Assembly: GCF_007556815.1 (NCBI RefSeq)
Contig: NZ_CP041745.1
Span: 1,527,001-1,591,000 of the forward strand
Length of the DNA: 64,000 bases
Direction of reading: 5' to 3'
DNA from: Paraburkholderia megapolitana
Lineage (GTDB): Bacteria; Pseudomonadota; Gammaproteobacteria; Burkholderiales; Burkholderiaceae
Shown piece after piece: positions 15,994-41,428 of this stretch (the first letter of the stretch is position 1; every line of letters starts with the position of its first letter). Under the pieces are notes generated by a model. It searched no databases, was not told the origin of the DNA, and worked only from the letters and a program-made list of their open reading frames with translations. The position numbers and the translations under genes were made by a program.

Positions 15994-16043
15994 TCGCACA
16001 TTGAACGTATCGAACGACTGACGCTGCTCACCTGGCAATCCGC

Positions 16044-16739: not shown

Positions 16740-16821
16740 ACGCACGCGTCACCGTTCCATTCACATAACTTACCTCTAGCTCAACCCGCGAGCCCAACCC
16801 GGAACCAGAGAGCCAGCCATC

Positions 16822-18510: not shown

Positions 18511-18518
18511 GCGTCGCC

Positions 18519-19148
18519 GTGACGTTGAAGACGACACTGATCCGCGCAGCTGAACTCGTCGCGTCGCCGTGGAAGAACGGCGGTGGCGTGACGCGCGAGA
18601 TTGCGGCGCATCCGCAGGGCGCGCCGCTCGATACTTTCGTGTGGCGCGTGAGCGTGGCCGATGTCGCGGCAGCAGGGCCGTTCTCGAAGTTTCCGGCCAT
18701 CGACCGGACGCTCGTGCTGCTGTCCGGTGCGGGCATGCTGCTCGACGAGCATGCAGCGCATGACAGCGAGCACGGCCTGCACACGCATACGCTGACACAG
18801 CCGCTCGACGTCGCGCGTTTCGCCGGCGAAGCGGCGATCGATGCGCAACTGGTCGACGGCGCGACCCGCGACTTCAACCTGATGCTGCGACGTGGTGCGG
18901 CGACCGGCACACTCGATGTGTGGCGTGGCGACGGTCGCGACATGCAGCGCACGTTGAATGGCGACGTCGTGCTGCTGTACTGCGCGGCGGGGCGGGTGAC
19001 GCTCACGCTGGGCGACACGCCGCCGCTACATTGCGCGACTGGCGACACGCTACGTATCGACGCAGCCGCTGCGTTACCGTGCGTTGCGAGTGCCGCAGGC
19101 ATGCCCGGCGCAATCGCGCTGCTCGCCATCGAGATCCGTTACGCGTAG
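18519..19148 (+). CDS. hutD: HutD cupin-like protein
   Basis: 209 residues from GTG 18519, eight bases after hutU. HutD-family proteins have a double cupin-like fold and limit hut induction in Pseudomonas, perhaps by binding formylglutamate; no enzyme activity is established. The family opening [13 protein letters not shown] is present at about residues 17-29, followed by [22 protein letters not shown], with a second beta-rich half. Position inside the hut operon supports the call. Confidence 0.93.
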
Positions 19149-19240
19149 CATCGTTTGTCATCCCGATCCCGCGCGTCCGGGTTGCCATCGGACGCGCATC
19201 GACAGGCCAGATCACGCGGCCGTGTGGTTATGAATACGCG

Positions 19241-20479
19241 ATGAAGCACACTGTCTGGCATCACCTGAATCTCTGTCCGCACGGCGATCCCACTGCGACG
19301 GTTACCGACGCGGCGATTGCGGTGCGCGACGGTCGCATCGACTGGCTTGGCGCGGCCAGCGACCTCCCAGCGGCGTACGCACAATGGCCGCGCGAAGACC
19401 TGGGCGGCGCCTGGGTTACGCCTGGCCTCGTCGATTGCCACACGCACCTCGTGTACGGCGGCCAGCGCGCCGATGAATTCGCGCAGCGGCTCGCGGGCGT
19501 CAGCTACGAAGAGATCGCGAAGCAGGGCGGTGGCATCGTGTCGACGGTTCGCGCCACGCGCGCAGCCGACGAAGCGACGCTACTACGCGACGCCGCAACG
19601 CGGCTCGAACCGCTGCTTGCCGAAGGCGTCACCGCAATCGAAATCAAATCGGGCTACGGCCTCGACCTCGCGAGCGAACGCAAGATGCTGCGCGTCGCGC
19701 GACAACTCGGCGAGCGCTATCCGGTGACGGTTTATACGACCTTTCTCGGCGCGCACGCGTTGCCGCCCGAGTTCGCGGGCCGCGCCGACGATTACATCAC
19801 CGAAGTGTGCGAGCACATGCTGCCGGCGCTCGCGGACGAAGGGCTCGTTGATGCCGTTGATGTGTTCTGCGAGCGCATCGGCTTTTCACTTGCACAGAGC
19901 GAGCGCGTGTTCGACGCCGCCGCACGTCGCAACCTGCCGGTGAAGATGCACGCGGAACAGCTTTCGAACAGCGGCGGCACAGCGCTGTCGGCACGGCATC
20001 GCGCGCTGTCGGCGGATCACCTCGAATTTCTCGACGAAGCGGGCGTCGCCGCGATGCAGGCGGCGGGCACGGTTGCCGTGCTGTTGCCCGGCGCGTACTA
20101 CTTCATTCGCGAGACGCAGTTGCCGCCGCTCGACCTGCTGCGGCGCTACAACGTGCCGATCGCGATTTCAACCGATAGCAATCCGGGCACGTCGCCCGTC
20201 ACGTCGCTGCTGCTGATGATGAACATGGCAACGACACTATTCCGCATGACCGTGCCCGAAGTGCTGCAAGGCGTGACGCAGCACGCGGCACGCGCACTCG
20301 GCAAGGCCGACGTACATGGCACGCTCGCGGTCGGTCGATCTGCCGACTTCGCCGTATGGCCCGTCACGACGCTCGCCGAACTCGCCTACTGGTTCGGCAG
20401 GCCGCTCTGCGCGCGAGTCGTGCGCCACGGCGAAACCGTCTACACGCGGCCCACTGCGCCGCTTTCCACTCACGTCTAA
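19241..20479 (+). CDS. hutI: Imidazolonepropionase
   Basis: 412 residues from ATG 19241; the open frame extends upstream into hutD but that part is not protein-like. Amidohydrolase that opens imidazolonepropionate to formiminoglutamate. Seen: metal ligands in [10 protein letters not shown], the SGYGLDL segment, [11 protein letters not shown] with a catalytic His and Glu, and [11 protein letters not shown] with the metal-binding Asp. Length is normal for the family (about 405-415). A 92-base gap to hutD holds no clear terminator. hutF begins two bases after its stop. Confidence 0.96.
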
Positions 20480-20481
20480 AC

Positions 20482-21873
20482 ATGACTCACGCAGACCGAT
20501 CGCTTTTCGCCGAATACGCGTGGTTGCCCGACGGCTGGCGCCATAACGTGCTGCTGCAATGGGACGCTCACGGCGTATTGACAACCGTCACCGCCGATAG
20601 CGAAGCACCGGCAGGCGTCGCACGCGCGGCCGGTCCATTGTTGCCGGGCATGCCGAACCTGCATTCGCATGCGTTTCAGCGCGCGATGGCCGGCTTGACC
20701 GAATACCGCGCCAACGCAGTCGACAGTTTCTGGAGCTGGCGCGACCTGATGTACCGCTTTGCCGCGAAGATCACGCCTGAAGGGCTCGCGGCCATCGCGC
20801 AATGGCTCTACATCGAGATGCTGAAGGCGGGCTATACGTCGGTGTGCGAGTTTCACTACGTGCATCACCAGGCCGACGGCGCGCAGTATCCGCAAGCCGC
20901 CGAACTGGCCGCGCGCGTCGTCGACGCAGCGGCTGCGAGCGGCATCGGTATCACGATGCTGCCCGTGCTGTATCAGTACAGCGGTTTCGGTGCGCGTGCG
21001 CCGCGCGACGATCAGCGGCGCTTTATCAATACGCCGGAACAACTGCTCGAAATGCTCGCGCAACTGCAACACGCACGGCCCGAGCATCACGCGCTGCGCT
21101 ACGGCGTCGCGCCGCATTCGCTGCGCGCCGTGTCCGAAGCTTCGTTACGCACGTTGCTCGAAGGGCTCGACGCGATGTTGCCGGGCGCACCCGTGCATAT
21201 CCACATCGCCGAGCAGACCGCCGAAGTCGACGCATGCGTCGAGACCGAAGGGGCGCGGCCGGTGCAATGGCTGCTCGACCGCTTCGACGTCGACGCGCGC
21301 TGGTGCCTCGTGCACGCGACTCATATCGATGCGCACGAAACCGCGGCGCTCGCGAAGAGCGGTGCGATCGCGGGCCTGTGCCTGACCACCGAAGCAAATC
21401 TTGGCGACGGCATTTTCCCGGCGCCGGAGTATCTCGACGCACACGGGCGTTTCGGTATCGGGTCGGATAGCCATATCGGCGTCGACTGGCGTGCCGAATT
21501 GCGTCTGCTCGAATACGGCAAGCGGCTCGCACGCAGGCAACGCAACGTGCTCGCGAGTGCCGCGGCGCCGCGCGTGGCCGACCGGCTGTTCGCCGGCGCG
21601 CTCGAGGGCGGCGCGCAGGCGACCGGCCGCAAGGTCGGCGCATTGCAGGTGGGCCTGCGCGCGGACTGGATGGTGCTCGACGCTGAGCACCCGAGTATCG
21701 CCGGTCATCCGGCCGACACGTGGCTCTCGGGCACGGTGTTCTGCGAGCACGGCGAAACGCCGGTGCGCGATGTGTATACCGGCGGCGAGCAGGTTGTGAC
21801 CAACCGGCGTCATCGCGACGAAGCCCGCGCTTATGCGCAGTACCGCGCGGCGCTGGCCGATCTGTTAGCCTGA
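20482..21873 (+). CDS. hutF: Formimidoylglutamate deiminase
   Basis: 463 residues from ATG 20482, two bases after the hutI stop. Amidohydrolase that deiminates N-formimino-L-glutamate to N-formyl-L-glutamate and ammonia, the HutF branch of the five-step pathway. Seen: PNLHSHAFQRAMAGLTEYR (metal-binding HxH and a substrate loop typical of HutF), HYVHHQ, HIAEQTAEV and FGIGSDSHIG with the metal Asp. Its presence with hutG defines the route; no glutamate formimidoyltransferase or HutG-agmatinase-type enzyme is present. Confidence 0.96.
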   Translation: MTHADRSLFAEYAWLPDGWRHNVLLQWDAHGVLTTVTADSEAPAGVARAAGPLLPGMPNLHSHAFQRAMAGLTEYRANAVDSFWSWRDLMYRFAAKITPEGLAAIAQWLYIEMLKAGYTSVCEFHYVHHQADGAQYPQAAELAARVVDAAAASGIGITMLPVLYQYSGFGARAPRDDQRRFINTPEQLLEMLAQLQHARPEHHALRYGVAPHSLRAVSEASLRTLLEGLDAMLPGAPVHIHIAEQTAEVDACVETEGARPVQWLLDRFDVDARWCLVHATHIDAHETAALAKSGAIAGLCLTTEANLGDGIFPAPEYLDAHGRFGIGSDSHIGVDWRAELRLLEYGKRLARRQRNVLASAAAPRVADRLFAGALEGGAQATGRKVGALQVGLRADWMVLDAEHPSIAGHPADTWLSGTVFCEHGETPVRDVYTGGEQVVTNRRHRDEARAYAQYRAALADLLA

Positions 21874-21912
21874 GCGACCCGGCTTCTTTCCACCGATACC
21901 GACCGTACCGAT

Positions 21913-22761
21913 ATGACCGCTTCGAATACATCGAACCCACCGAACACTTCGCAAACTTCGAACCCGACGCCGGTTTTTTCGCTGCAACGAGGAAGCCTGC
22001 CGCTTTTGATCTCGATCCCGCATCTGGGCACGCGCATTCCCGACGATATCGCCGCGACGATGACGCCGGTCGCGCAGCGCGTCGACGATTGCGACTGGCA
22101 TCTGGACCGGCTGTACGCGTTCGCTGCGCGCCTTGGCGCATCGATACTCGCGCCGGTCTACGCGCGCTACGTGATCGATCTGAACCGCCCGCCCGATGGC
22201 GCGAATCTTTATCCGGGGCAGGACACGACAGGGCTGCTGCCAGTCGATACGTTCGACAAGGAACCGCTCTATCGCGACGGCCATCTACCGACCGACGCGG
22301 AAGTCGCGCGTCGTCGCGAGCTTTACTGGCAGCCGTATCACACGGCGCTTGCCGACGAACTCGCGGCGCTCAAGGCGCAGCACGGCAAGGTGCTGCTGTG
22401 GGAAGCACATTCGATCCGCTCGCGCGTGCCGCGGTTCTTCGAAGGGCGGTTGCCGGACTTCAACTTCGGTACGTCGAACGGTGCGAGCGCGGTGCCCGGA
22501 CTTGCTGACGAGCTTGCAGCGATCGTCGAACAGCACGGCGCTTATACGGCGATCGGGAATGGGCGCTTCAAGGGCGGTTACATCACGCGGCAGTATGGTC
22601 AGCCGCAGCAGGGCGTGCATGCGGTCCAGCTGGAGCTGTCGCAGATCACCTATATGCAGGAGCAGATGCCGTACGCGTACGACGAGGCGCTGGCCGCACG
22701 TGTCGAGCCGTTGCTCGAGACGCTGCTCAAGACCGCACTCGCTCGTGTCGAAGGGAGCTAA
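21913..22761 (+). CDS. hutG: N-formylglutamate deformylase
   Basis: 282 residues. Hydrolyses N-formylglutamate to glutamate and formate, the last hut step. The FGase family is shown by LLISIPHLGTRIP near residue 32, DDCDWHLDRLY, YVIDLNRPPDG, LLWEAHSIRSRVPRFFEG and FNFGTSNG. The first 20 residues are rich in Thr, Asn and Pro and probably disordered. The downstream acetyltransferase starts four bases after its stop. Confidence 0.95.
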   Translation: MTASNTSNPPNTSQTSNPTPVFSLQRGSLPLLISIPHLGTRIPDDIAATMTPVAQRVDDCDWHLDRLYAFAARLGASILAPVYARYVIDLNRPPDGANLYPGQDTTGLLPVDTFDKEPLYRDGHLPTDAEVARRRELYWQPYHTALADELAALKAQHGKVLLWEAHSIRSRVPRFFEGRLPDFNFGTSNGASAVPGLADELAAIVEQHGAYTAIGNGRFKGGYITRQYGQPQQGVHAVQLELSQITYMQEQMPYAYDEALAARVEPLLETLLKTALARVEGS

Positions 22762-30041: not shown

Positions 30042-31295
30042 CTACATGCGCAGTCCTGCGATGTACTTCGCGCGTGGCCGTAACAGAAAGGCCTGCGCAC
30101 GCTGTTCCAGCACATGCGCGACCCAGCCGGCGGTGCGGCTGATGATCCACACGGCGGTCGCCGTGCCATCCGGCAGCCCCAGGGCGCGGGCAAGCACGAC
30201 GAGCGCGATCGCCACGCCCGGATGCATCGAGAGCCTGTCTTCCGCGAGCATGAGAAAGTCGAGCGTGGGCGCGGTGTGCGGTGTCGCATGTCGCAGCGCG
30301 CGCACCTGTTCGAGAATCAGATTGGCTCGCACATCGCCGTCCGGATACAACGGATGGTTGAAGCCGAAGAGGCTTGCGCCGACTTCGCGAACCAGTTGCA
30401 GACGGTCTGCCTGATCGCAACTGGCGATGTCGCGCAACAGCAGCGTCTCCACTCTCTCGGTTGCGGTACCCGTCGAGAAACCGACGTGCGAACCGATCGC
30501 CGACGCGATGCAGTTGTAAAGATCCGCATTCGTCGATGCCGCAACTCGCGCAGCGAACGTTGCCGGCGCGAGTTCGTTGTCCGCCAGCACCGTGAGCGCG
30601 CCATTGAGTGCGAACACGGCGTCGGGCGTACCGGTGCCTCCTGCCGCGCGCAGCAGATAGGCCGCCATACTCTCGCCGCGCTCGCGCATCACAAATGCAC
30701 GCGCGTTGCTCAGAAAGCCGAGACATCCGGTCATCGTCTGCATGATGAGGCGCGCCGCCTGCACGGCACTGCCATCGGAGATCTCTTCCGCGCCGCGTCC
30801 CTGCATGCCGAGCGCGAGCGGCACCATACCGAGCAGATTGGCGATGTCGCTGCCATCCAGTTTGCCGGCGTACGCGTCGAATAACGGCAACACGGCTTGC
30901 GGTGTGTCGAGCGTCCCCCACGCAGTGACGCCGTCTTGCCAGATGCCCGTCATCAAAAGCTGCGAAACCGATTCGAACGACGAACCCGCTTTCGCCATCT
31001 CGACTGCAGACCGGTTGCGATACAGCGGTCCTTGCGCCGTGATGTTCGTGATGGCCGACGCGAGCACCGGCTCACCCCAGCGCATCGTCGATTCCGCCGA
31101 TGCTGCTCTCGCTGTGCGTCCGCGTTTGCGGCTTCCCACCCGTTCGACATCGGCGCGCACATACAGGCTGCGACGACCGTCGTCGTGCGGCGCAGTGCCG
31201 ATCAATCCGCGGCTTACGTACGAATAAAGCGTGGCCGGTTTGATATTGAGCCGTGCCAGCACCTCTTCTCGTGTCATCAGATCTTTGGTCGTCAT
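30042..31295 (-). CDS. HTH domain fused to a degenerate citrate-synthase domain (probable regulator)
   Basis: 417 residues from ATG 31295. Residues 7-55 form a MerR/excisionase-type helix-turn-helix (MTREEVLARLNIKPATLYSY, then RRSLYVRADVERV); residues 70-417 are a citrate-synthase fold ending RPRAKYIAG. Gap-free comparison with remembered GltA motifs ([20 protein letters not shown]) puts Thr275 where catalytic His264 should be, and ADNEL where ADHEQ carries His229. His314 (GFNHPLYPDGDVRA), Asp346 (PTLDFLML), Arg323 and the RTAGW Arg are kept. Activity is therefore doubtful and a sensor role likely: the domain may bind a carboxylate effector. Divergent from the catabolic operon; ATATTGATT repeats lie between. 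Confidence 0.85.
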   Translation of the reverse strand: MTTKDLMTREEVLARLNIKPATLYSYVSRGLIGTAPHDDGRRSLYVRADVERVGSRKRGRTARAASAESTMRWGEPVLASAITNITAQGPLYRNRSAVEMAKAGSSFESVSQLLMTGIWQDGVTAWGTLDTPQAVLPLFDAYAGKLDGSDIANLLGMVPLALGMQGRGAEEISDGSAVQAARLIMQTMTGCLGFLSNARAFVMRERGESMAAYLLRAAGGTGTPDAVFALNGALTVLADNELAPATFAARVAASTNADLYNCIASAIGSHVGFSTGTATERVETLLLRDIASCDQADRLQLVREVGASLFGFNHPLYPDGDVRANLILEQVRALRHATPHTAPTLDFLMLAEDRLSMHPGVAIALVVLARALGLPDGTATAVWIISRTAGWVAHVLEQRAQAFLLRPRAKYIAGLRM

Positions 31296-31297
31296 TG

Positions 31298-31315
31298 AAT
31301 CAATATAATCAATAT
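31298..31315. promoter_or_regulatory. Tandem operator half-sites (AATCAATAT x2)
   Basis: Two exact, adjacent 9-bp copies AATCAATAT (31298-31306 and 31307-31315) abut the start codon of the HTH-citrate-synthase gene. The reverse complement ATATTGATT recurs once more at 31426-31434. Binding here would block expression of the regulator itself. Confidence 0.55.
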
Positions 31316-31425
31316 AAATTGAGCTATAGAACAGCATCTCATGTTCTCGGAGAAGTCTAGCAGAGCGCCATAGAATCTGGAAATTTCAGCCTTTCTCACC
31401 ATGGCACATCGGTACAACGAGTTTT

Positions 31426-31546: not shown

Positions 31547-32674
31547 ATGCATGACCTGAGACGCGAATTCGGGCCGGCGCAAGCGCACTTCGTCGATCAG
31601 ACGGGCCAGCGTCCCCATGACAATCGTTACTGGGCGCCGGTGATCGTGAGTCGCGAAGCGATCGACGCCGAAGTGGCTCGTCTCGCCGCGTTGCCGAAGC
31701 CGCAGGACGGCCGCCGTCATTCGTTGATCGTTCACCCGTTCGCACGCGAGGGCTCGCCGGGACTTGCGCCCGGCATCCAGGTATCGCTCCAGGTGCTGTT
31801 GCCGGGCGAATCGACCGAGCCGATGCGTCACAACGCGACCGAGGTGAATTTCTGCATTCGCGGTGGCGGCGCGACGCGCGTTGCGGGTCGCACGATCGCA
31901 TTCCGCCAGTACGACGTGTGGAACCATCCGTCCTTCGTGGCGTACTCGCATACCAACGACACGGACGACGTCCAGGTGCGTCTCGTCTATTCGAACATTC
32001 CGTTGCTACAGCACATGGAAGTGTATGTGCCGGAGTTCGGCGTCGAACTCGACGTGCCGACTGAAACAGCGAACATGCACGCGAGTGACGACCCGAAGCG
32101 CCGCAATCCGTTCGGTACGTTCCCGATCGGCAACGACGGCGGTCTGCTGATGCCGTACGAAACGTTGATCAATCCGCAGGTGGTCGACTCGCGTCCGTTG
32201 CACTTTCCGTGGCAACAGGTGAAGGCCGAACTCGACAAGCTCGAGGCGCTCGGCAGCGAATACGTCGGGCGGCGTCTGTACATGATGTACAACCCCGTGA
32301 CGGGCCGCACTAACGGCATCACGCCGAACTTCTTTGCAACGATGACGATCCGGCCGCCGAAGATCGTCGATCGTCCGCATCGTCACGTGTCTTCCGCGAT
32401 CAACTATTACTTCTCGGGTTCGGGCTACAGCATGGTGGCGGGCAACCGCTACGAGTGGAAAGCCGGCGATCTGATGCTGTCGGCACCTGGCTGGGCCGTG
32501 CACAACCACGCGTCCTATGACGACTACGTGTACGAGCTGACCATTCAGGACCAGCCGCTCAATATCTACATGCAATCGCTGCTGTGGCAGGAGAGCATGA
32601 AGGAACCTCTCGCGCTGCTCGGCACGCAAACGGGCTTTTCGACCAACCGCGCGAATACCGCCAAGGTCGCCTGA
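31547..32674 (+). CDS. Bicupin ring-cleavage dioxygenase-like protein (gentisate dioxygenase family)
   Basis: 375 residues; ATG 31547 has GAGGAGA eight bases upstream. Two cupin domains as in gentisate, salicylate and 1-hydroxy-2-naphthoate 1,2-dioxygenases. Known gentisate dioxygenases keep the iron in the N-terminal cupin; here that domain has only MRHNATEVNF (one His of the HxH pair), whereas the C-terminal cupin has a full set: RPHRHVSSAINYYFSG (His278, His280) and GWAVHNHAS (His319/His321). The metal site thus seems to have moved to the second cupin. First gene of the operon; the aldolase follows 28 bases on. Expected to cleave a hydroxylated aromatic carboxylate; substrate unknown. Confidence 0.82.
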   Translation: MHDLRREFGPAQAHFVDQTGQRPHDNRYWAPVIVSREAIDAEVARLAALPKPQDGRRHSLIVHPFAREGSPGLAPGIQVSLQVLLPGESTEPMRHNATEVNFCIRGGGATRVAGRTIAFRQYDVWNHPSFVAYSHTNDTDDVQVRLVYSNIPLLQHMEVYVPEFGVELDVPTETANMHASDDPKRRNPFGTFPIGNDGGLLMPYETLINPQVVDSRPLHFPWQQVKAELDKLEALGSEYVGRRLYMMYNPVTGRTNGITPNFFATMTIRPPKIVDRPHRHVSSAINYYFSGSGYSMVAGNRYEWKAGDLMLSAPGWAVHNHASYDDYVYELTIQDQPLNIYMQSLLWQESMKEPLALLGTQTGFSTNRANTAKVA

Positions 32675-32702: not shown

Positions 32703-33596
32703 ATGCGCGATATCTCATGGCTGAAGGGCTCGATTACGCCGATCGTCACGCCGTTTCGCAACCAGGCGGTCGATTACGAAACCTACGCGCGGCTCGTCGA
32801 CTGGCAAATCGTCAACGGGGGGCACGGTGTGCTCGTGAACGGCACGACAGCCGAGCCTAGTCTGCTCACTGTCGCCGAACGCAACCGCCTGGTGGACGTG
32901 GCGATCGAGGCGGCGGCGGGTCGCGTTCCGGTGCTCGCTGCGACGGGCTCGCAATCGCACGCCGAAACCGTCGAGCTGACGCAACACGCCGACAAGGCCG
33001 GTGTCGATGCGCTGCTGATCGTCACGCCGTACTACATCCGTCCGCCGCAGCGGGGCCTCGTCGAGTATTACGCGGACATTGGCGCACGAACCGAACGACC
33101 GCTGCTGATTTATCACATTCCGGGGCGAGCCGCCGTCGGCATGGAGCTCAACACAGTCAAGACGATCCGCGAACGCGTGCCGAATCTGGTTGGCATGAAG
33201 CACGCGGTCAACGACATGGCCTTCGTTACGCACATGCTCGATGCGTTCGGGCCCGAGTGGCGCGTATTCGTCGGGCTCGAGGAGTTGAGCTACCCAATGC
33301 TCGCCGTCGGCGCGTGCGGGTTGATGAATGCCGTCGGAAATCTGGCGCCGCGCAAGGTCGCCGGTCTGGTCGAAGCCGTCGAGCGCGGCGATCATGCTGC
33401 CGCCCGCCAATTGCACTTCGCGCTTTTCGAGCTGAACCAGGCGGTGTTTTACGACACGAATCCGATTCCCATCAAATACATGATGAAGCGCATGGGCCTG
33501 ATTCCAGCCAACGACCATCGCCTGCCGATGATGCCCGCCACGCGCGAACTCGAAGCACGGCTCGACGGCGTGCTGGATCGCGCTGGTCTGCTCTGA
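32703..33596 (+). CDS. DapA-family (dihydrodipicolinate synthase-like) aldolase/hydratase
   Basis: 297 residues. TIM-barrel class I aldolase family. Seen: NGTTAEPSLLTVAERN (pyruvate-binding GTTxE), VTPYYIRPPQRGLVEYY, IYHIPGRAAVG with the catalytic Tyr137, and GMKHAVND with the Schiff-base Lys166. The operon setting makes lysine biosynthesis unlikely; the family also includes hydratase-aldolases that split aromatic ring-cleavage products into pyruvate and an aldehyde. Start ATG 32703 has AAGGAA upstream. The next gene begins 42 bases after. Confidence 0.88.
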   Translation: MRDISWLKGSITPIVTPFRNQAVDYETYARLVDWQIVNGGHGVLVNGTTAEPSLLTVAERNRLVDVAIEAAAGRVPVLAATGSQSHAETVELTQHADKAGVDALLIVTPYYIRPPQRGLVEYYADIGARTERPLLIYHIPGRAAVGMELNTVKTIRERVPNLVGMKHAVNDMAFVTHMLDAFGPEWRVFVGLEELSYPMLAVGACGLMNAVGNLAPRKVAGLVEAVERGDHAAARQLHFALFELNQAVFYDTNPIPIKYMMKRMGLIPANDHRLPMMPATRELEARLDGVLDRAGLL

Positions 33597-33638
33597 ATGC
33601 ACGTTGACGACGCGAGCCACCATGAACCGGAGACAACG

Positions 33639-34193
33639 ATGAGCGACCGAATCCCCAGGCTGGAGATGACCCAGATGCGCGTCGATCTGGCTGCGTATCT
33701 GACGCCCCGCGTCGAGCGGCTGCGTTATCTCGGCGAGCTTTTCAAGTGCATTGGCCATGCGCCCGACGTCACGCTGCATTTCATGCATTTCACCGATGCA
33801 CTGAAGCACGCGTTGCCCGACCGTCTGACCGAACTCGGTGCGCTGACTGTCGCGAGCTACATGGAGAATCGTTACGAACGCAATCAGCACGAGCGGTTGA
33901 GCGTCAAACTGGGTTTCCCATGCGCGTGGATCGCACAGGTCAACCAGCTCGATCCTTCGGCTGCGACGGAGTTGAGCGAAACCGAGTTGGCTGCGCAGCG
34001 CTATGCGCTCAAGGCGTTGCGGACCCGCGGGCTGGATGCGCAGGAGGAGTTCGACACGCTGGCGACCCTCGTGACGCCCGCCGAAGCAATGGCGTTCGTA
34101 ATGCTGATCGGCCGCTACGTTACGCATGCGATTGCCGTCAATACGCTACGGCTGGAGCCGCCCGTGCCGTCCATCTTCGCGGGCGAACCATGA
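33639..34193 (+). CDS. Carboxymuconolactone decarboxylase/AhpD-like protein
   Basis: 184 residues from ATG 33639 with CGGAG upstream; the open frame extends 14 codons earlier without support. All-helical. The segment LTVASYMENRYERNQHERLSVKLGFP resembles the core of AhpD/CMD-like proteins, with the His-containing helix pair, but the CxxC of AhpD is absent, so peroxidase activity is unlikely; a decarboxylase or lactone-processing role fits the operon better. The stop overlaps the next start (ATGA), so it is coupled to the ornithine-cyclodeaminase-like gene. Confidence 0.75.
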   Translation: MSDRIPRLEMTQMRVDLAAYLTPRVERLRYLGELFKCIGHAPDVTLHFMHFTDALKHALPDRLTELGALTVASYMENRYERNQHERLSVKLGFPCAWIAQVNQLDPSAATELSETELAAQRYALKALRTRGLDAQEEFDTLATLVTPAEAMAFVMLIGRYVTHAIAVNTLRLEPPVPSIFAGEP

Positions 34194-35179
34194 GCGCAGC
34201 GACTCCGCCCATCTGGATCTCGGAGCAGCAGATCGTCTCGCTGATGAACCTGTCGGGCGCGATCGAGGCGCTCGAAAGCGGCCTTGCGCAACAGGCAGGT
34301 GGCGTGGCGCTCAACATGGGAAAAACGCACGTCGCGTGGGGGCATAACAATCTGCACGCGATTGGCGCAGCGTTTCAGGAAGCAGGCATCGTCGGCACCA
34401 AGACGTGGGCGCATACGGAAGGCGGCGCCTGCCCGCTGCTGATGCTCTTCGACAGTACGAACGGTCAATTGAAGGCCATTCTCGAAGCGTTTGCACTCGG
34501 CCAGATGCGCACGGGTGGCATTTCCGGTGTCGCGACCCGATGGCTCGCGCAGCCCGACGCGGAGGTGCTCGCGCTGATCGGCACCGGCAAGCAGGCGCTC
34601 GCGCAGCTCGCTGCCGTCGCCGCGGTACGACGCCTGAAGCTGGTGCGTGTGTACAGCCCGACGCCGGACAAGCGTCGCGCGTTCGTCGAGCGGGCGCGCG
34701 AAAAGTTCGAGATTGAAATCGTTGAGGCCTCATCGGTGGAAGCCGCCGTTGCCGGTGCGCCGATCGTTACGACAGTCACGCGCGCTACGCAAGCGTTTCT
34801 GCCTGCATCGGCCCTCGCGCGCGGCGCGCACGTGAACGCTGTAGGCGCCATTACGGAAGAACGAATCGAACTTGCCGACGATGTGTTTGCGCGCTGTACG
34901 CGTGCCGTAGTCGACGATCTCGGCGCGGCCAGGCGGCTTTCGACGGAGTTCGTCCGCGCATACGGTGCGACGGATCGCTGGAACGAAGTGGTGCCGTTAT
35001 GCGACGTCGTTGCGCAACGCCTCGCACGCACGGCATCCGACGACATCACAGTGTTCAAGGCGATGGGTATGGGTGTATCGGATCTCGCGCTCGGCCTGCG
35101 TCTGTACGCGCTCGCGAGCAGGATGGGGCTCGGTATACCGCTGCCGCAACCGCGCCGCGAGTTGCCGCGCCTCGACTGA
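34190..35179 (+). CDS. Ornithine cyclodeaminase/mu-crystallin family protein
   Basis: 329 residues from ATG 34190 (4-base overlap with the gene before). NAD(P)-binding Rossmann domain: LALIGTGKQALAQLAAVAAVR is the GxGxxA motif, GAHVNAVGA and FVRAYGATDRW follow, and TVFKAMGMGVSDLALGLRLY is the C-terminal family signature. Known members deaminate ornithine, reduce ketimines or oxidise amino acids. In this operon an imine- or keto-acid-reducing step is the inference. A 134-base gap before the porin gene marks a possible internal promoter. Confidence 0.88.
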   Translation: MSAATPPIWISEQQIVSLMNLSGAIEALESGLAQQAGGVALNMGKTHVAWGHNNLHAIGAAFQEAGIVGTKTWAHTEGGACPLLMLFDSTNGQLKAILEAFALGQMRTGGISGVATRWLAQPDAEVLALIGTGKQALAQLAAVAAVRRLKLVRVYSPTPDKRRAFVERAREKFEIEIVEASSVEAAVAGAPIVTTVTRATQAFLPASALARGAHVNAVGAITEERIELADDVFARCTRAVVDDLGAARRLSTEFVRAYGATDRWNEVVPLCDVVAQRLARTASDDITVFKAMGMGVSDLALGLRLYALASRMGLGIPLPQPRRELPRLD

Positions 35180-35313: not shown

Positions 35314-36375
35314 ATGAAGAAGCACCATGCGCTCACCGCGGTCGCCGTGTCATGCGCGGCTGTCCCGACTGCCTATGCGCAAAGTTCGGTGACACTCTAT
35401 GGCATCACTGACGTCGGCATCGAAGTCGTCAATCATGTGCCCGGTCCGAACGGCACCTCCGGAACGGCGGTGCGTATGGAGTCGGGCAACCTCGCCGGTT
35501 CGCGCTGGGGTTTGCGCGGTCAGGAGGATCTGGGCGGTGGATTGACGGCTGAGTTCGATCTGGAGAACGGCTTCTCGATTGCAAACGGCACGTTGGCGCA
35601 GGGCGGTCGCCTGTTCGGACGTAAGGCGTACGTCGGGTTGAACACGCCGTATGGCGAGGTGACGTTAGGTCGACAGTACAACCTCCTGTACGGGTTGATG
35701 TACGTGTACGATCCGCTCAACTTCAATCCCGGCTATTCGGCGCAGGGCTACGATGCGACCCTGGTGGGCCGCGTCGATAATTCAGTGCGGTATCTGGCTC
35801 ATTTCTCGGATGTGACATTTGCGGCGTTGTACAGCACGGGCTTCGACTCGACCATTCCGAACGGTGCACAGGTGCCGGGCCACTCGAAGGTCGGCCGCGA
35901 ATACAGCGTTTCGCTGCAGTACGCGAACGGGCCGGGCAATGTCGGGATTGCGTACGATCAGATGCAGGGCACCTCGATCGCGACCGCGGACGTGACGCAG
36001 ATGCGCGTGATGGGCGGCGGGTCGTACTCGTTTGGGCCCGTGAAGGCCTTCATCGGTACACGCTGGCTCAACATTCGCAACAACATGGCGCTGCAAAGCT
36101 CGCTGCTGTACTGGCTGGGCGCCGCGTGGCAGGCCAGCGTGCCGCTCGTATTTTCGCTGGGTGCCTATCAGGAACGTATTCGCGGAACCGGGCAGAAGAC
36201 CACGAGCGGCGTGCTGCTAGCCGACTACTTTCTATCCAAGCGCACGGACGTCTACGCCGAGGTCTCGTATGTCAGCAATGCCAGTGGCCTGAATTTCGGC
36301 GTGCGTGCGCTCGGCGACGTAACGACGGGCAGCAACCAGACCGGCGCAGTGGTCGGCATCAGACACGCCTTCTGA
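35314..36375 (+). CDS. Outer-membrane porin (Burkholderia/Neisseria type)
   Basis: 353 residues. Signal peptide cleaved at AYA-QS, then the standard start SSVTLYGITDVGIE of 16-stranded trimeric porins. GSRWGLRGQEDLGGGLTAEFDLENGF, GRLFGRKAYVGLNTPYGEVTLGRQYN and the C-terminal GAVVGIRHAF with a terminal Phe for BAM recognition all match. It is likely the outer-membrane entry route for the substrate of this operon. The MFS gene starts 14 bases after it. Confidence 0.95.
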   Translation: MKKHHALTAVAVSCAAVPTAYAQSSVTLYGITDVGIEVVNHVPGPNGTSGTAVRMESGNLAGSRWGLRGQEDLGGGLTAEFDLENGFSIANGTLAQGGRLFGRKAYVGLNTPYGEVTLGRQYNLLYGLMYVYDPLNFNPGYSAQGYDATLVGRVDNSVRYLAHFSDVTFAALYSTGFDSTIPNGAQVPGHSKVGREYSVSLQYANGPGNVGIAYDQMQGTSIATADVTQMRVMGGGSYSFGPVKAFIGTRWLNIRNNMALQSSLLYWLGAAWQASVPLVFSLGAYQERIRGTGQKTTSGVLLADYFLSKRTDVYAEVSYVSNASGLNFGVRALGDVTTGSNQTGAVVGIRHAF

Positions 36376-36389
36376 CAGCGGAGAACATC

Positions 36390-37751
36390 ATGGCTCAACA
36401 CAAGGTATCGATGCCCGCGAGCCGCATCGACGTTCGCCAGGAACTGGAAGAAGCGCGTCTCGGCGGATTCCATCTTCGACTGGGTATCCTGATCTCGCTG
36501 ATCCTGCTGTTCGACGGCTACGATCTGTACAACTCCGCGTATATCGTCCACTACGTGACCGGACCCTGGGGACTTTCGCCGACGCGCATCGGCATCATGC
36601 TGTCCAGCGGACTCGCCGGATTTGCAGCGGGCTCGGCCATCAGCGGCCTGCTCGGCGATCGTTTCGGGCGGCGCAAGATCCTGCTGCTCGGCTGCTGGGG
36701 CTCCGGTGTGATGAGTCTTGCGATCGCGGTGTTCGCGGACAATCTCGCGTTGTACATTGCGCTGCGCGTGACGATGGGGCTCGCGCTCGGACTGCTGATG
36801 CCGCTCGCTGTCACCTACATCAACGAGATCGCGCCGACGCGCTCATCGAACGTTTTCACGAGCCTGTTTTTCTCGCTCGGCTGGGTGAGCGGATCGTCGT
36901 CGGCGGGGTTGATTGCGGCGTGGCTCACACCGCGTTTCGGATGGCAGAGTCTCTACTACGTCGGCGGCATTTCGCTGGTGTTCGCGCTGGCGATCCAGTT
37001 GTGGCTGCCGGAATCGCCACGCTTTCTCGCCAGCCGCGGTCGCTGGGACGAGGTGAAATCGCTGCTTTACCGGCTGCGTCCGGAACGTGCCGCGGCCTAC
37101 GACGTCGGCGAGTTCGCCGCCGCCGGTACGGTTTCGCACAGGAGCCCGCTCGGCCGGCTGCTGACGCACGAATACCGGCTGCGCACGTTGAGCTTCTGGG
37201 CTGCCGGCGCATTGAGCCTGTTCTCGGCCTACGGGCTGTCCGGCTGGCTGCCGACCATCATGCTCAAGCGCGGCGAGAATCTGTCGTCGAGTTTCGCCTA
37301 CGGCTCGCTGTTCGCCGGCATGGCGGTGGCGGGTGGTCTGATCTCGGGCTTCATCGCTGACCGGGTCGGCGATCGCCGTCGGGTCATCGCGCTGTCGTAT
37401 CTGCTAGGCGCGGCGATGGTCGCCCTGCTGGCCTGGGCAACCGACCGCACCACGACGCTCATCGCCGTCGCCGGCGCGGGTGCGTTCGTCGTCGGTTCGC
37501 AGATCGTGCTCAACAACCTCGTTGCGACCGCTTATCCGACCGAAATGCGTGGCACCGGGGTCGGTCTGTTCCTCGGTCTGTCGCGTGTCGGTGCGATGTT
37601 CGGGCCAGCGGTGGCCGGCATACTGCAACAGTGGTCGGGCGGTCCCGGCATCATGTTCGTCGCGATCGGCATTGCGCTGCTGACGACGGCCACGCTGATA
37701 CTGACCATCGGTCCTTCGCAACCGCACGTGGTCGTGACCAACGCTCACTGA
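36390..37751 (+). CDS. AAHS-type MFS transporter (aromatic acid:H+ symporter)
   Basis: 453 residues from ATG 36390 with GGAG ahead; open frame upstream overlaps the porin and is not used. Twelve helices; FDGYDLYNSAYIVHYV carries the DGYD pattern of the aromatic-acid symporter branch, and GLLGDRFGRRKILLLG and RVTMGLALGLLMPLAVTYINE are MFS motifs A and the helix 4 signature. LPESPRFLASRGR follows helix 6. It probably imports the aromatic or related acid for which the porin and dioxygenase genes provide entry and breakdown. Confidence 0.88.
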   Translation: MAQHKVSMPASRIDVRQELEEARLGGFHLRLGILISLILLFDGYDLYNSAYIVHYVTGPWGLSPTRIGIMLSSGLAGFAAGSAISGLLGDRFGRRKILLLGCWGSGVMSLAIAVFADNLALYIALRVTMGLALGLLMPLAVTYINEIAPTRSSNVFTSLFFSLGWVSGSSSAGLIAAWLTPRFGWQSLYYVGGISLVFALAIQLWLPESPRFLASRGRWDEVKSLLYRLRPERAAAYDVGEFAAAGTVSHRSPLGRLLTHEYRLRTLSFWAAGALSLFSAYGLSGWLPTIMLKRGENLSSSFAYGSLFAGMAVAGGLISGFIADRVGDRRRVIALSYLLGAAMVALLAWATDRTTTLIAVAGAGAFVVGSQIVLNNLVATAYPTEMRGTGVGLFLGLSRVGAMFGPAVAGILQQWSGGPGIMFVAIGIALLTTATLILTIGPSQPHVVVTNAH

Positions 37752-37776: not shown

Positions 37777-38766
37777 ATGTCGAGACTGTCCTTGAGCCTC
37801 GCCGTCAGCGATTACGACCACGTGCGCGATCTGGTGAGTGGGCGCGTGCGGCCGGAAGGCATCGACCTGTTGCCTTCCGTGCTGAACGTCGAGGAGATCT
37901 TCTATCGCACGACCCATTTCCAGGAATGGGACATCTCCGAGATGTCGTTCGGCAAATATTCGTCGTTGCGCTCGCAAGGCGATGACCGGCTCGTCGGTTT
38001 GCCGGTGTTTCCGTCACGCTCGTTCAGGCAGTCGTCGCTCTATGTCCTTCGTGACGGTCCCGTCCTGCGTCCCGAGGACTTGCGTGGCAAACGCATCGGT
38101 ATTCCGGAGTGGGCGCAAACGGCCGCGATCTATTCGCGCGGCTGGATCGCACATTCGCTGGGTATTCCGCTCTCTGAAATCGAATGGGTACAGGGCGGCG
38201 TGAATGAGGCGGGGCGCAAGGAGAAGGTGAACGTGCGCGTGCCCGAGGGCGTGTCGTATCGCTGTGAGCCGACGCAGTCGCTGACCTCGATGCTGCTCGA
38301 CGGCAAGATCGCGGCCGTGATGAGTGCGCGTCCGCCCGAGCCGGGCGGCGACCGGGCTTTCGAAATCGTGCGTTTATTCCCCCGCTTTGCAGACACGGAG
38401 CGCGAGTACTACGAAGCCACACGCATTTTTCCGATCATGCATCTGATCGTGCTGCGCCGCGAGATCTTCGAAAAGCATCGCTGGATCGCGGGCAATCTGC
38501 TGAAGGCTTTCGAGGAAGCGAAGCGCAATAGCCTCTACCGCTTGAGCGATGTTACCTGCTCTCACTTTCCGTTGCCGTGGATGCCGGCGCGTGTCGCCGA
38601 GGCGGAGAAACTCTTTGGCGCGGATATCTGGCCTTACGGACTGGAGCCGAATCGCACGACGCTCGAAGCGTTTCTGCAGTTTGCTTACGAGCAGGGCGTG
38701 TGCCATCGGTTGCTGAAGCCGGAGGAATTGTTCCCGGTCGAAACACTCAGCACAGTGCGCGTATGA
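37777..38766 (+). CDS. 4,5-dihydroxyphthalate decarboxylase-like / NMT1-type protein
   Basis: 329 residues without a signal peptide. Type 2 periplasmic-binding fold as in 4,5-dihydroxyphthalate decarboxylase and the NMT1 group. Seen: YDHVRDLVSGRVRPEGIDL at the N-terminus, FQEWDISEMSFGKYSSLR, GKRIGIPEWAQTAAIYSRGW, and HLIVLRREIFEKHRWIAGNL. The lack of a signal peptide favours a cytoplasmic enzyme over an ABC binding protein. Phthalate-type chemistry would fit the aromatic-degradation setting, but the reaction is inference. Forty-nine bases separate it from the thiamine-diphosphate enzyme gene. Confidence 0.8.
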   Translation: MSRLSLSLAVSDYDHVRDLVSGRVRPEGIDLLPSVLNVEEIFYRTTHFQEWDISEMSFGKYSSLRSQGDDRLVGLPVFPSRSFRQSSLYVLRDGPVLRPEDLRGKRIGIPEWAQTAAIYSRGWIAHSLGIPLSEIEWVQGGVNEAGRKEKVNVRVPEGVSYRCEPTQSLTSMLLDGKIAAVMSARPPEPGGDRAFEIVRLFPRFADTEREYYEATRIFPIMHLIVLRREIFEKHRWIAGNLLKAFEEAKRNSLYRLSDVTCSHFPLPWMPARVAEAEKLFGADIWPYGLEPNRTTLEAFLQFAYEQGVCHRLLKPEELFPVETLSTVRV

Positions 38767-38815: not shown

Positions 38816-40783
38816 ATGTCCAGACGCCTTGCGCATGGGCGGCGCATTTTTCTGAAAGAAGCTTTGACCACCGCAACGGCGGCGGCGCTGGTCACGCCAC
38901 GCGGTGCTCTCGCAACGGCGCCTGCTGTTGCTGTCGGTCCCGCCGTGGTCGAACCGAACGCCGCGCTCGTCGCCGCGGAAACTCAGGCACACGCACCGAT
39001 GCCTTCGCTGTCCGAGGCCGCGGCAACCGATTCAACGCACGTCGGTAATCCCGGTTCGGATTTCATGGTGGACATGTTGAGAGCGGTCGGCATCGACTAC
39101 GTTGCAGCGATGCCAGGATCGACGTTCCGCGGTATTCACGAGTCCATCGTCAACTATGCGGGAAATACGCGCCCCGAACTGATTACCTGCACGCATGAAG
39201 AAGCGTCGGCTGCGATCGCCCATGGCTATGCGAAGGTGGCGGGTAAACCTATGGCCTGCCTGGTTCACAGTACCGTCGGATTGCAGCATGCATCGATGGC
39301 CATCTACAACGCCTGGTGCGATCGCGTTCCGATGATGGTGATCGCCGGAAATATCGAAGACGCTTCAAAGCGGCGCAACGGGGTGGAGTGGTATCACACG
39401 GCACAGGATCTGGGTGCCCTGGTGCGCGACTATACGAAGTGGGACGACATGCCACTGTCCCTGCAGCAGTACGCGGAGTCGTTCGTACGCGCTTACTCGA
39501 TGTCCGTCACCCCACCGATGGAACCCGTACTCATCGTGGCCGATGGCGAGTTGCAGGAGCGACCGATCGAGCACGCGACCGATATCGTCGTACCGGACCT
39601 TCGTCCAGTCGCACCACCGGTGGCGAGTCCCGACGCGCTTGCTGCTGCCGTTGAGCTACTGCGTCATGCGCAGTCGCCGGTCATCGTGGTCGATCGTGCC
39701 ATACGTACGGCTGCGGGCATGGACACGCTGATCGAAATTGCAGAAACCCTGAACGCTCCGGTCATCGACCTGCTCGCGCGGATGAATTTTCCGACCAACC
39801 ACTACCTCAATCTCACGTGGCAGCAAAACGCGTTGATCGGTCAGAGCGACGTCATTCTCGCACTCGAAGTGGGAGATCTCTGGGGCGTCACAGGCGTGGT
39901 GTCCGATTCGATTGGGCGGCCCTCCAGACGGATTGCACGCCCGGATGCGAAAGTGATCGGCATCTCGACCGCCTATCTGTACGGCAAGTCGAATATGCAG
40001 GATGCGCAGCGCTATTCGTCTGCGACGCTCGCCATCGCGGCCGATGCGGAAGCATCACTGGCCGAGCTGCTGCGCATCCTGAACGCATCGATGACCCCTG
40101 CGCAAAAGGCGAGCGCCACGGCGCGCGCCGAACCGCTAAAGCAGGCCTTCGATACCATGCGCGCGGCTGCGCGCAACGACGCGACGCGTGGTTGGGATGC
40201 GAGCCCGATCAGTACGGCGAGGTTGTCGCAGGAAGTCTGGAACGTAATCAGGCACGAAAAATGGGCGCTCGTATCGTCGTCGCTTTTCATTAGCCGCTGG
40301 CCGCAGCGTCTTTGGGATTTCACGGAGCCTTACCAGTACATCGGTGCCGAGGGAGGCTACGGTGTGGGCTACGGCGCACCGGCCGCCGTCGGTGCGGCAC
40401 TGGCACATGCACGAGCCGGACGCATCGCCGTAAATATCCAGACCGACGGAGACCTGATGGTGTTGCCCGGCGTGTTGTGGACGGCCGCACATCACAAGAT
40501 ACCGCTGCTGACCGTCATGCATAACAATCGGGCGTGGCACCAGGAGAGCATGCATGTCCAGCGGATGGCGAACCGGCGTGACCGTGGAGCGGACCACGGC
40601 ACCGTGGGCACGGTCCTGAACGATCCCGACATCGACTTCGCGGCAATGGCCAGGAGCATGGGCATGTGGGCGGAAGGGCCGATCGCGAAGCCAGAGGACC
40701 TGGGACCTGCTCTCGCTCGTGCGCTTGCCGAGGTAAAGAATGGGCGGCCCGCCTTGCTCGATGTCGTGACTCAACCGAGATAG
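38816..40783 (+). CDS. Tat-exported thiamine-diphosphate-dependent enzyme (acetolactate synthase/benzoylformate decarboxylase type)
   Basis: 655 residues from ATG 38816 (GGAG ten bases before). The N-terminus has a twin-arginine signal, GRRIFLKE with Arg9-Arg10 and an Ala-rich core, so the folded enzyme should be exported to the periplasm. Three TPP-enzyme domains follow: residues 78-250 with THEEASAAIAHGYAK (catalytic Glu128), 265-420 middle domain, 470-655 with QTDGDLMVLPGVLWTAAHH (metal/diphosphate site, TDGD in place of GDGS) and NN570-571. Such enzymes decarboxylate 2-oxo acids. The dihaem cytochrome c nine bases downstream suggests electrons are passed to the respiratory chain. An exported member of this normally cytoplasmic family is unusual. 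Confidence 0.85.
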   Translation: MSRRLAHGRRIFLKEALTTATAAALVTPRGALATAPAVAVGPAVVEPNAALVAAETQAHAPMPSLSEAAATDSTHVGNPGSDFMVDMLRAVGIDYVAAMPGSTFRGIHESIVNYAGNTRPELITCTHEEASAAIAHGYAKVAGKPMACLVHSTVGLQHASMAIYNAWCDRVPMMVIAGNIEDASKRRNGVEWYHTAQDLGALVRDYTKWDDMPLSLQQYAESFVRAYSMSVTPPMEPVLIVADGELQERPIEHATDIVVPDLRPVAPPVASPDALAAAVELLRHAQSPVIVVDRAIRTAAGMDTLIEIAETLNAPVIDLLARMNFPTNHYLNLTWQQNALIGQSDVILALEVGDLWGVTGVVSDSIGRPSRRIARPDAKVIGISTAYLYGKSNMQDAQRYSSATLAIAADAEASLAELLRILNASMTPAQKASATARAEPLKQAFDTMRAAARNDATRGWDASPISTARLSQEVWNVIRHEKWALVSSSLFISRWPQRLWDFTEPYQYIGAEGGYGVGYGAPAAVGAALAHARAGRIAVNIQTDGDLMVLPGVLWTAAHHKIPLLTVMHNNRAWHQESMHVQRMANRRDRGADHGTVGTVLNDPDIDFAAMARSMGMWAEGPIAKPEDLGPALARALAEVKNGRPALLDVVTQPR

Positions 40784-40792
40784 GCGGCGATC

Positions 40793-41428
40793 GTGAAAAA
40801 ATGCCCGGTATTGAACAGACACGTCGTCGCGTTTACGGTCGCGTGTCTGTTTCTCTGCGCAACAACATCCGCCGCCGATGCGACACCGGATGCGGTGGCG
40901 CGTGGGCATGCGCTCTTCGTGAGCAAGGGGTGTTTCGAATGCCACGGCTACGTCGGGCAGGGCAGCATCATGTCCGGTCCCAGCATTGCTCCTGCGCCAC
41001 TGCCTCTTGCCGCGATGGCCGCCTACATTCGCGCGCCCAAAGGCCAGATGCCGCCCTACAGCACGAAGATCCTGAGCGATGCCGAGCTGCGCGACATCCA
41101 TACCTACCTTGAGTCGATACCCGCGGATCCGAAGCTCGACACGGTTGCTCTCCTGAAGGCCGAGCGGTCGCAGACGGTGAGCACCACCGTGCCGACGACG
41201 CTTGCACATGGTGAAGCTGTATTTGCTGCTCACTGTGCGGCATGTCACGGCGCCATGGGCGAGGGTGGACTGGGGCCGGCGTTGAAAGGAGTCGCCGGGA
41301 GGCTGAACGTCGATGGGATCGCGGCCTCTGTGAGAAATCCGGCTGGCGCAATGCCTCGGCTGGTTCCGGCGGTCCTGAGCGATCAGGACGTCAACGACGT
41401 CGCGCGGTACGTCGCGACCCTGAGGTAA
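40793..41428 (+). CDS. Dihaem cytochrome c
   Basis: 211 residues from GTG 40793, nine bases after the previous stop. Signal peptide (cleavage near TSA-AD), then two class I c-type domains: CFECH at residues 47-51 and CAACH at 148-152, with Met/Pro-containing segments (APKGQMPPYS; NPAGAMPRLVP) that supply distal Met ligands. Periplasmic electron carrier. Coupling to the exported thiamine-diphosphate enzyme, rather than to an unseen oxidase, is inferred from adjacency and shared export. Confidence 0.9.
   Translation: MKKCPVLNRHVVAFTVACLFLCATTSAADATPDAVARGHALFVSKGCFECHGYVGQGSIMSGPSIAPAPLPLAAMAAYIRAPKGQMPPYSTKILSDAELRDIHTYLESIPADPKLDTVALLKAERSQTVSTTVPTTLAHGEAVFAAHCAACHGAMGEGGLGPALKGVAGRLNVDGIAASVRNPAGAMPRLVPAVLSDQDVNDVARYVATLR

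Follow-up and report, generated by a model that had tools for sequence, protein, structure and literature searches.

Can an enzyme that depends on thiamine diphosphate (TPP) work outside the cytoplasm, and what would take up its electrons there? Two adjacent genes of Paraburkholderia megapolitana raise this question. They lie in a 64,000-nucleotide stretch of contig NZ_CP041745.1, which we analysed as a whole and call the window. The first gene encodes a TPP enzyme of 655 amino acids (aa) that carries a predicted twin-arginine translocation (Tat) signal. The second follows after 9 bases and encodes a cytochrome c. We think it probable, though far from certain, that the pair is a periplasmic TPP-dependent 2-oxo-acid:cytochrome c oxidoreductase, whose oxidative chemistry we infer. 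To our knowledge, no TPP enzyme has been described as working outside the cytoplasm. We found no description of an exported TPP enzyme paired with a cytochrome in the open full-text literature, a scope outside which most subscription papers fall.

Export signal and cytochrome partner

The TPP enzyme begins with MSRRLAHGRRIFLKEALTTATAAALVTPRGALA. Its twin arginine is followed by a hydrophobic stretch and, judged by eye, an AxA site, and a TatC gene scores above its cut-off in the same genome. The initial annotation had described a twin-arginine motif, GRRIFLKE, and a signal region ahead of a complete three-domain TPP enzyme, and this is exactly what the sequence contains. The Pfam domains TPP_enzyme_N, TPP_enzyme_M and TPP_enzyme_C all score above cut-off. 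Glu128 (within HEE), TDGD (543-546) and NN (570-571) are in place, as is the secreted cytochrome with its motifs CFECH and CAACH. The latter protein is assigned to the c-type by its CxxCH motifs, a signal recognised by eye, and matches above cut-off to PF13442 (two stretches) and PF00034.

To place the pair we used the best 80 loci among 347 relatives from a genome scan, a sample in which distant members are under-represented. Three loci hold two copies, so that with the window there are 84 family open reading frames (ORFs). The module in 80 loci across phyla excludes a single-genome oddity. By record title Acidobacteriota account for 41 of the 80; the rest are mostly Proteobacteria, plus Eremiobacterota and one Acidimicrobiia bin. 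Within the bacterial family of the window the pair has a scattered distribution, being present in 7 of 398 genomes at E 1e-150, its own genome included. A set of 259 genomes from the order of genome G872 gave no family member at E 1e-140, a blank that shows little because the set has no known positive. In a database search the best 120 of 7908 matches have a median length of 648 aa and carry names from Burkholderia, Paraburkholderia, Caballeronia, Herbaspirillum, Undibacterium and Sphingomonas.

The motif RRx[FLIVM][LIVMF] was sought anywhere between the start of the frame and the enzyme domain, and occurs in 82 of the 84 family ORFs (81 of 83 without the window). The stretch after it reaches a best 12-residue hydropathy of 0.9 to 2.1. 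One of the two ORFs without the motif lies at a contig edge (L026), and the N-terminus of the other reads like a frame slip (L061). Genes of the same loci with 250 aa or more, other than the family, served as background, and their counts still include two repeated stretches. When only the first 60 residues of each called gene are considered, 71 of 84 family genes carry the motif, compared with 37 of 616 others; within 130 residues it is found in 82 of the 84. Among database proteins the same pattern holds, with the motif in 107 of 120 family members and in none of 120 members of a sister clade described below.

Could the enzyme nevertheless stay on the cytoplasmic side, with a non-functional twin-arginine stretch and a cytochrome that is adjacent through incidental co-transcription? 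In 13 of the 120 database relatives the first 60 residues contain no such motif; at least one of these proteins (P0043) starts at an internal Met. Against this, the residues following the motif are kept over several phyla (of the 82 genes that have it within 130 residues, 80 show F, 75 show L and 54 show K), while the N-terminal region outside the motif varies, and the sister clade has no motif. We therefore regard a cytoplasmic enzyme as extremely unlikely. A Tat-type export signal is well supported by its conservation across phyla and by a sister clade without it, and export itself would be the expected consequence.

The cytochrome is conserved in the same way. A frame with CxxCH starts within 112 bases downstream of 78 of the 84 family ORFs (77 of 83 without the window), compared with 16 of 563 other genes, which excludes chance adjacency. 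Two of the six genes without such a frame (L047, L074) end within 160 bases of a contig edge. In the relatives, 75 of 77 downstream cytochromes carry the form C[YFW]xCH, along with conserved glycines and prolines and a later MP. Besides the window, 13 of the 77 have a second haem motif, and two haems are thus a minority feature. It is found in Burkholderia, Caballeronia and Paraburkholderia kin, some sphingomonads, a Caulobacter and five Acidobacteriota. Three loci (L034, L057 and L073) hold two TPP-cytochrome pairs in tandem.

Distances between TPP enzymes and distances between their cytochromes are correlated over 78 pairs (r 0.66; maximum of 0.18 in 1000 permutations), with shared ancestry not removed. 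Such a correlation is as expected of co-inherited genes and does not separate interaction from shared descent. The pairing itself is well supported by its persistence across phyla and by a sister clade that lacks it. Both the Tat signal and the cytochrome partner claimed for the single locus thus hold for the family at large (82 and 78 of 84), and the sister clade has neither.

Active site and cytoplasmic sister clade

What kind of TPP enzyme is exported? E128, D544 and N571 are invariant in all 84 family ORFs and, together with the three Pfam domains, place the family in the decarboxylase group of the TPP superfamily. A profile built from 76 relatives finds benzoylformate decarboxylase as its top match in the PDB (1.6e-39); benzaldehyde lyase is also matched (4.4e-29). 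With 152.7 bits against a cut-off of 493, the window enzyme falls outside the curated benzoylformate decarboxylase family. In benzoylformate decarboxylase, an enzyme of the mandelate pathway, His281, Glu47, His70 and a Ser have known roles. Counted along the printed alignments with Pseudomonas chains, Glu47 corresponds to E128, His70 to H151 and Leu110 to H194, and the Ser of NPGS in 4q9d corresponds to S102. The equivalents are kept in 84 (E128), 84 (H151) and 78 (S102) of the 84 ORFs. No conserved His stands at the position of His281, either in the HMMER register or in a register that aligns DVIL with DVVL. The family thus resembles benzoylformate decarboxylase in its Glu47, His70 and NPGS-Ser equivalents and in lacking a flavin adenine dinucleotide (FAD) stretch of the acetolactate synthase type, and one copy (L037) has a 2-hydroxy-acid dehydrogenase gene beside it. 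It differs in its Tat signal, its cytochrome partner, the missing His281, the His at Leu110 and an extra Glu577.

Several sources label these proteins acetolactate synthase. This label was rejected, since acetolactate synthase scores below benzoylformate decarboxylase in the PDB profile search and no such model reaches its cut-off among the best 25 of 48 NCBIfam matches. In fact none of those 25 reaches a cut-off, the best being NF006203 (251 bits against 456), and Pfam gives the enzyme only its three general domains. The acetolactate synthase stretch GSRFDDR, which we take to bind FAD, reads EVGDLWG in the window enzyme, in a sequence alignment in which no pyruvate oxidase (POX) chain was compared.

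The closest comparison is provided by a clade of cytoplasmic-type enzymes of about 590 aa, annotated on pCAR3 and an Acidovorax plasmid and found in the order and phylum of the window. Their nearest model, PRK08327, is matched below cut-off and is the same as for the exported family. A tree was built from 39 family rows (the window among them), 2 sister rows and 7 other rows from the genome of the window. The sister rows are nearest to the family in it, a branch supported at 98/99 sets the family apart, and the other rows sit on long branches. A downstream CxxCH frame is absent from all 32 sister loci, and the Tat motif from all 30 in which the N-terminus could be placed (2 were not placed). 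In two loci (L025:13576-15345 and L027:13729-15510) a sister-type gene lies downstream of an exported pair, flanked by genes of one unnamed cluster.

Comparing the 84 family ORFs with 67 sister sequences position by position, we find H151, H194, R105 and R186 common to both. Residues that reach a conservation of 93% or more within the family but seldom occur among the sisters are M84, E109, N179, E351, N393, W460, A462, R469, E473, P522, H575, E577 and M579; four of the family-specific positions come after the Mg-binding NN. Position 576 is Gln in 74 of 84 family members and Asn in 66 of 67 sisters. The family reads His-Gln-Glu at 575-577, where the sister clade has Tyr/Phe-Asn-Ser/Asp.

Sister genes differ in their company as well. 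An aldehyde dehydrogenase scoring above 80 bits is found in 11 of 32 sister loci and in 2 of 82 family loci, and it adjoins the sister TPP gene in L104, L105, L142, L163 and L165. The cytochrome seems to stand where some cytoplasmic enzymes have an aldehyde dehydrogenase that uses nicotinamide adenine dinucleotide (NAD). This exchange is the main support for the cytochrome as the oxidative partner.

Proposed chemistry and its alternatives

How could such a pair work? The enzyme would fold in the cytoplasm, probably with TPP bound, and leave by the Tat route. In the periplasm TPP would attack an aryl- or similar 2-oxo acid, and carbon dioxide would leave. From the resulting carbanion or enamine the neighbouring cytochrome c would withdraw electrons one at a time, leaving an acyl-TPP, which water would hydrolyse to the carboxylic acid, and the electrons would pass to the respiratory chain. 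Such a reaction would replace the cytoplasmic route that may run near some sister genes, from a TPP decarboxylase through a free aldehyde to an NAD aldehyde dehydrogenase.

There is a familiar enzyme with part of this design. PoxB, the pyruvate:quinone oxidoreductase, has the same three-domain TPP build and delivers electrons to the respiratory chain; it is cytoplasmic and uses FAD and quinone, whereas the window pair has an export signal and a cytochrome c gene instead. A haem as one-electron acceptor appears plausible. One report describes the TPP carbanion of 1-deoxy-D-xylulose 5-phosphate (DXP) synthase, in work with an oxime, being oxidised by an outside acceptor to acetyl-TPP and then to acetate (PMC11908136). 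Another describes 2-oxoacid:ferredoxin oxidoreductases as oxidising the TPP intermediate through a radical (PMC5020499). The latter enzymes differ from our pair by their iron-sulfur clusters, ferredoxin, coenzyme A (CoA) and another subunit build.

What the substrate might be can be approached through the neighbours of the family. The 84 gene-called stretches give 82 distinct neighbourhoods (L099 and L100 repeat L017 and L019), among which near-alike species remain, and each name of a neighbour cluster rests on one representative or on likeness to a window protein. Most frequent are FAD enzymes resembling tricarballylate dehydrogenase (10, the representative passing the TcuA cut-off) and TonB-type receptors (9, by eye). 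There follow major facilitator superfamily (MFS) transporters like that of the window (8), pyrroloquinoline quinone (PQQ) dehydrogenases (8, the representative nearest to a glucose/quinate model and below cut-off), UbiD-type decarboxylases (7) and amidohydrolases (6). Relatives of dihydroxyphthalate decarboxylase, tannases and LigXa-type Rieske oxygenases are found in 4 each, the first of these outside the window only in the stretches of L024, L046 and L095. In several Acidobacteriota the tricarballylate-dehydrogenase-like gene lies divergently before the TPP gene, adjacent in L050, L055, L062 and L063 and near it in L060 and L083.

The tannase, UbiD and LigXa-type genes near some relatives would also suit a periplasmic oxidative C-C cleavage of acyloins or 1,2-diketones derived from plants or lignin, with the cytochrome as electron acceptor. 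Related cleavages are known from the TPP enzymes benzaldehyde lyase and cyclohexane-1,2-dione hydrolase, and the former is among the PDB matches. It is outscored there by benzoylformate decarboxylase, however, and nothing links the pair to one such substrate. We consider a cleavage of this kind very unlikely.

One locus points more directly to a 2-oxo acid. In L037 (Caulobacteraceae) the order is a probable TonB receptor (by eye), a flavin mononucleotide (FMN) 2-hydroxy-acid dehydrogenase, the TPP enzyme and the cytochrome. The dehydrogenase (L037:8394-9818; PF01070, 361 bits) has a Tat-type signal of its own, DRRAFLQ, and a CVSCH motif. Its best 120 relatives (P0241-P0360) have a Tat-like motif in 119 cases and an internal CxxCH in all 120, and a fair number are named 4-hydroxymandelate oxidase by their source. 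From its sequence this family looks like an exported flavocytochrome; relatives occur in 5 of 398 genomes. L037 would then look like a periplasmic mandelate-type route, from 2-hydroxy acid to 2-oxo acid to carboxylic acid, with cytochromes as acceptors. Since a single locus among the 80 of the family has this arrangement, it speaks for the class of substrate and is no proof.

Alternatively, the pair could act on aldehydes. An aromatic aldehyde would form the same enamine with TPP without decarboxylation, and the cytochrome would oxidise it to the acid, making the pair an aldehyde:cytochrome c oxidoreductase of the periplasm. The aldehyde dehydrogenase that the cytochrome seemingly replaces is consistent with this, and so are the PQQ dehydrogenases in 8 of the 82 neighbourhoods. 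Two observations argue the other way: the family of the FMN enzyme upstream in L037 makes 2-oxo acids, and the equivalent of His70, which is tied to decarboxylation in benzoylformate decarboxylase, is kept. Hence we regard aldehyde oxidation as unlikely.

A broader claim can be built on 2-oxo-acid oxidation. The family may be a widespread, unnamed class of exported TPP 2-oxo-acid:cytochrome c oxidoreductases that work without flavin, iron-sulfur cluster, CoA or NAD and whose TPP enamine gives up its electrons one by one to a dedicated cytochrome. Certain bacteria would couple such an enzyme to a Tat-exported FMN 2-hydroxy-acid dehydrogenase with haem c, completing a periplasmic mandelate-type pathway. 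We offer this larger picture tentatively, and it may well prove wrong.

Several points weigh against 2-oxo-acid:cytochrome c oxidation, and the chief caution is E577. It is invariant in the 84 family ORFs and replaced by Ser or Asp in the sister clade. By ungapped extension it would stand opposite Leu461 of benzoylformate decarboxylase, the place that the catalytic Glu occupies in pyruvate decarboxylase. That Glu serves non-oxidative decarboxylation. The register is unsure, because HMMER opens a gap there; if so aligned, E577 would favour acid-base chemistry on the enamine, and the protein could be read as a non-oxidative enzyme. Furthermore, four of the 84 family genes (L036, L063, L069 and L070) have room for a same-strand cytochrome and none within 1.8 kb, although a related cytochrome lies 1.6 kb off on the opposite strand in L070. 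Aldehyde dehydrogenase accompanies only 11 of the 32 sister genes, and in family loci L021 and L034 it immediately precedes the TPP gene although the usual cytochrome follows. The absence of FAD is judged from sequence only. Neighbourhoods vary and indicate no single substrate. An FMN dehydrogenase stands beside the pair in just 1 of the 80 loci, and where relatives of this dehydrogenase have sufficient contig around them (four loci, L177-L180), no match to any of ten window proteins, the TPP enzyme and the cytochrome among them, lies beside the FMN gene. The link between FMN dehydrogenase and TPP enzyme thus rests on one locus.

Read together, E577, the decarboxylases among the nearest solved relatives and the upstream aldehyde dehydrogenase of L021 and L034 would fit an exported non-oxidative decarboxylase or acyloin lyase. 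It would release an aldehyde in the periplasm, and the cytochrome would serve a separate aldehyde or alcohol dehydrogenase. Against this, no dehydrogenase family is found in more than 10 of the 82 distinct neighbourhoods. The cytochrome, moreover, adjoins the TPP gene itself in 78 of 84 cases and in none of 32 sister loci. A non-oxidative enzyme therefore seems improbable to us, and oxidation of a 2-oxo acid with electrons passing to the cytochrome is the reading we retain.

Gene run and biological meaning

In the window the pair forms the 3' end of a codirectional run that starts with a cupin gene and is preceded by a divergent gene for a citrate-synthase-like protein (Table 1). The run looks like an aromatic-acid pathway by its predicted products, several of which match curated models below cut-off only. 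The gene directly upstream of the TPP enzyme encodes a protein that is homologous over its full length to a solved 4,5-dihydroxyphthalate decarboxylase (PDB 9jp7; residues 1-326 of 329), a likeness known here from sequence. A phenanthrene or phthalate route through cupin, aldolase and dihydroxyphthalate decarboxylase was considered. We claim no such substrate, because the cupin is only a distant relative of gentisate dioxygenase and the aldolase is unspecific.

Table 1. Features of the gene run in the window (positions counted from the first base of the window)
Feature	Position	Strand	Basis
TPP enzyme, 655 aa, PYR-M-PP domains, exported family	38816..40783	+	ATG start at 38816, TAG end 40783; Pfam domains
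Predicted Tat signal: GRRIFLKE, hydrophobic stretch, ALA site; probable cleavage place	38816..38914	+	Motif conservation in family
Cytochrome c, 211 aa, GTG start, Sec-type signal (by eye), two CxxCH	40793..41428	+	PF13442 and PF00034; pairing conserved
Haem motif 1, CFECH	40931..40945	+	Sequence; C[YFW]xCH in 75/77 relatives' downstream cytochromes
Haem motif 2, CAACH	41234..41248	+	Sequence; second CxxCH in 13/77 relatives' downstream cytochromes
4,5-Dihydroxyphthalate decarboxylase-like protein, directly upstream of TPP gene	37777..38766	+	PDB 9jp7 homologue, full length, E 6.7e-72
MFS transporter, nearest model aromatic acid/H+ symport family, below cut-off	36390..37751	+	Model match
Outer-membrane porin	35314..36375	+	Pfam match
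Ornithine cyclodeaminase/mu-crystallin (OCD) family protein	34184..35179	+	Pfam match
Small protein, weak carboxymuconolactone decarboxylase (CMD) match, below cut-off (E 0.056)	33597..34193	+	Model match
DapA-family aldolase/hydratase	32703..33596	+	Model matches
Cupin, distant relative of gentisate and 5-aminosalicylate dioxygenases, below cut-off	31547..32674	+	Model matches
Citrate-synthase-like protein, N-terminal helix-turn-helix match below cut-off, possible regulator	30042..31337	-	Model matches

The initial annotation had supposed that periplasmic oxidation avoids import of the product. This part is not borne out: with a porin and an MFS transporter in the same run, the product is probably imported. 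In this genome the transporter would bring the acid into the cytoplasm, where the decarboxylase, the cupin dioxygenase and the aldolase of the run would process it.

Citrate-synthase-like proteins recur near exported and cytoplasmic TPP genes alike (in the window and in L010, L011, L102, L105, L142, L146 and L168), and the copies of the window and L105 have the helix-turn-helix match at their N-terminus. Perhaps the protein is a carboxylate-sensing regulator. Close kin in Caballeronia again have such a gene, with annotated ring-hydroxylating dioxygenase and PdxA genes nearby. Elsewhere in the window, an open frame of 470 aa that runs antisense to the aldolase gene (32715-34127, minus strand) is probably a shadow frame in GC-rich DNA, positions 14467-22761 resemble a histidine utilisation cluster (by eye from translations), and no RNA family scores above threshold.

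What would such a pair mean? An exported TPP enzyme with its own cytochrome, encoded here and by numerous related environmental bacteria, suggests an undescribed route by which keto acids or related compounds are broken down outside the inner membrane, and it would be a new class of enzyme should oxidative chemistry be shown. Thiamine chemistry would then have a new electron acceptor and a new compartment. One would also have to explain how Tat transports an enzyme that is loaded with TPP and has multimeric relatives. A gene pair that is found across phyla, at times near tannase, UbiD and aromatic-acid genes, would gain a function.

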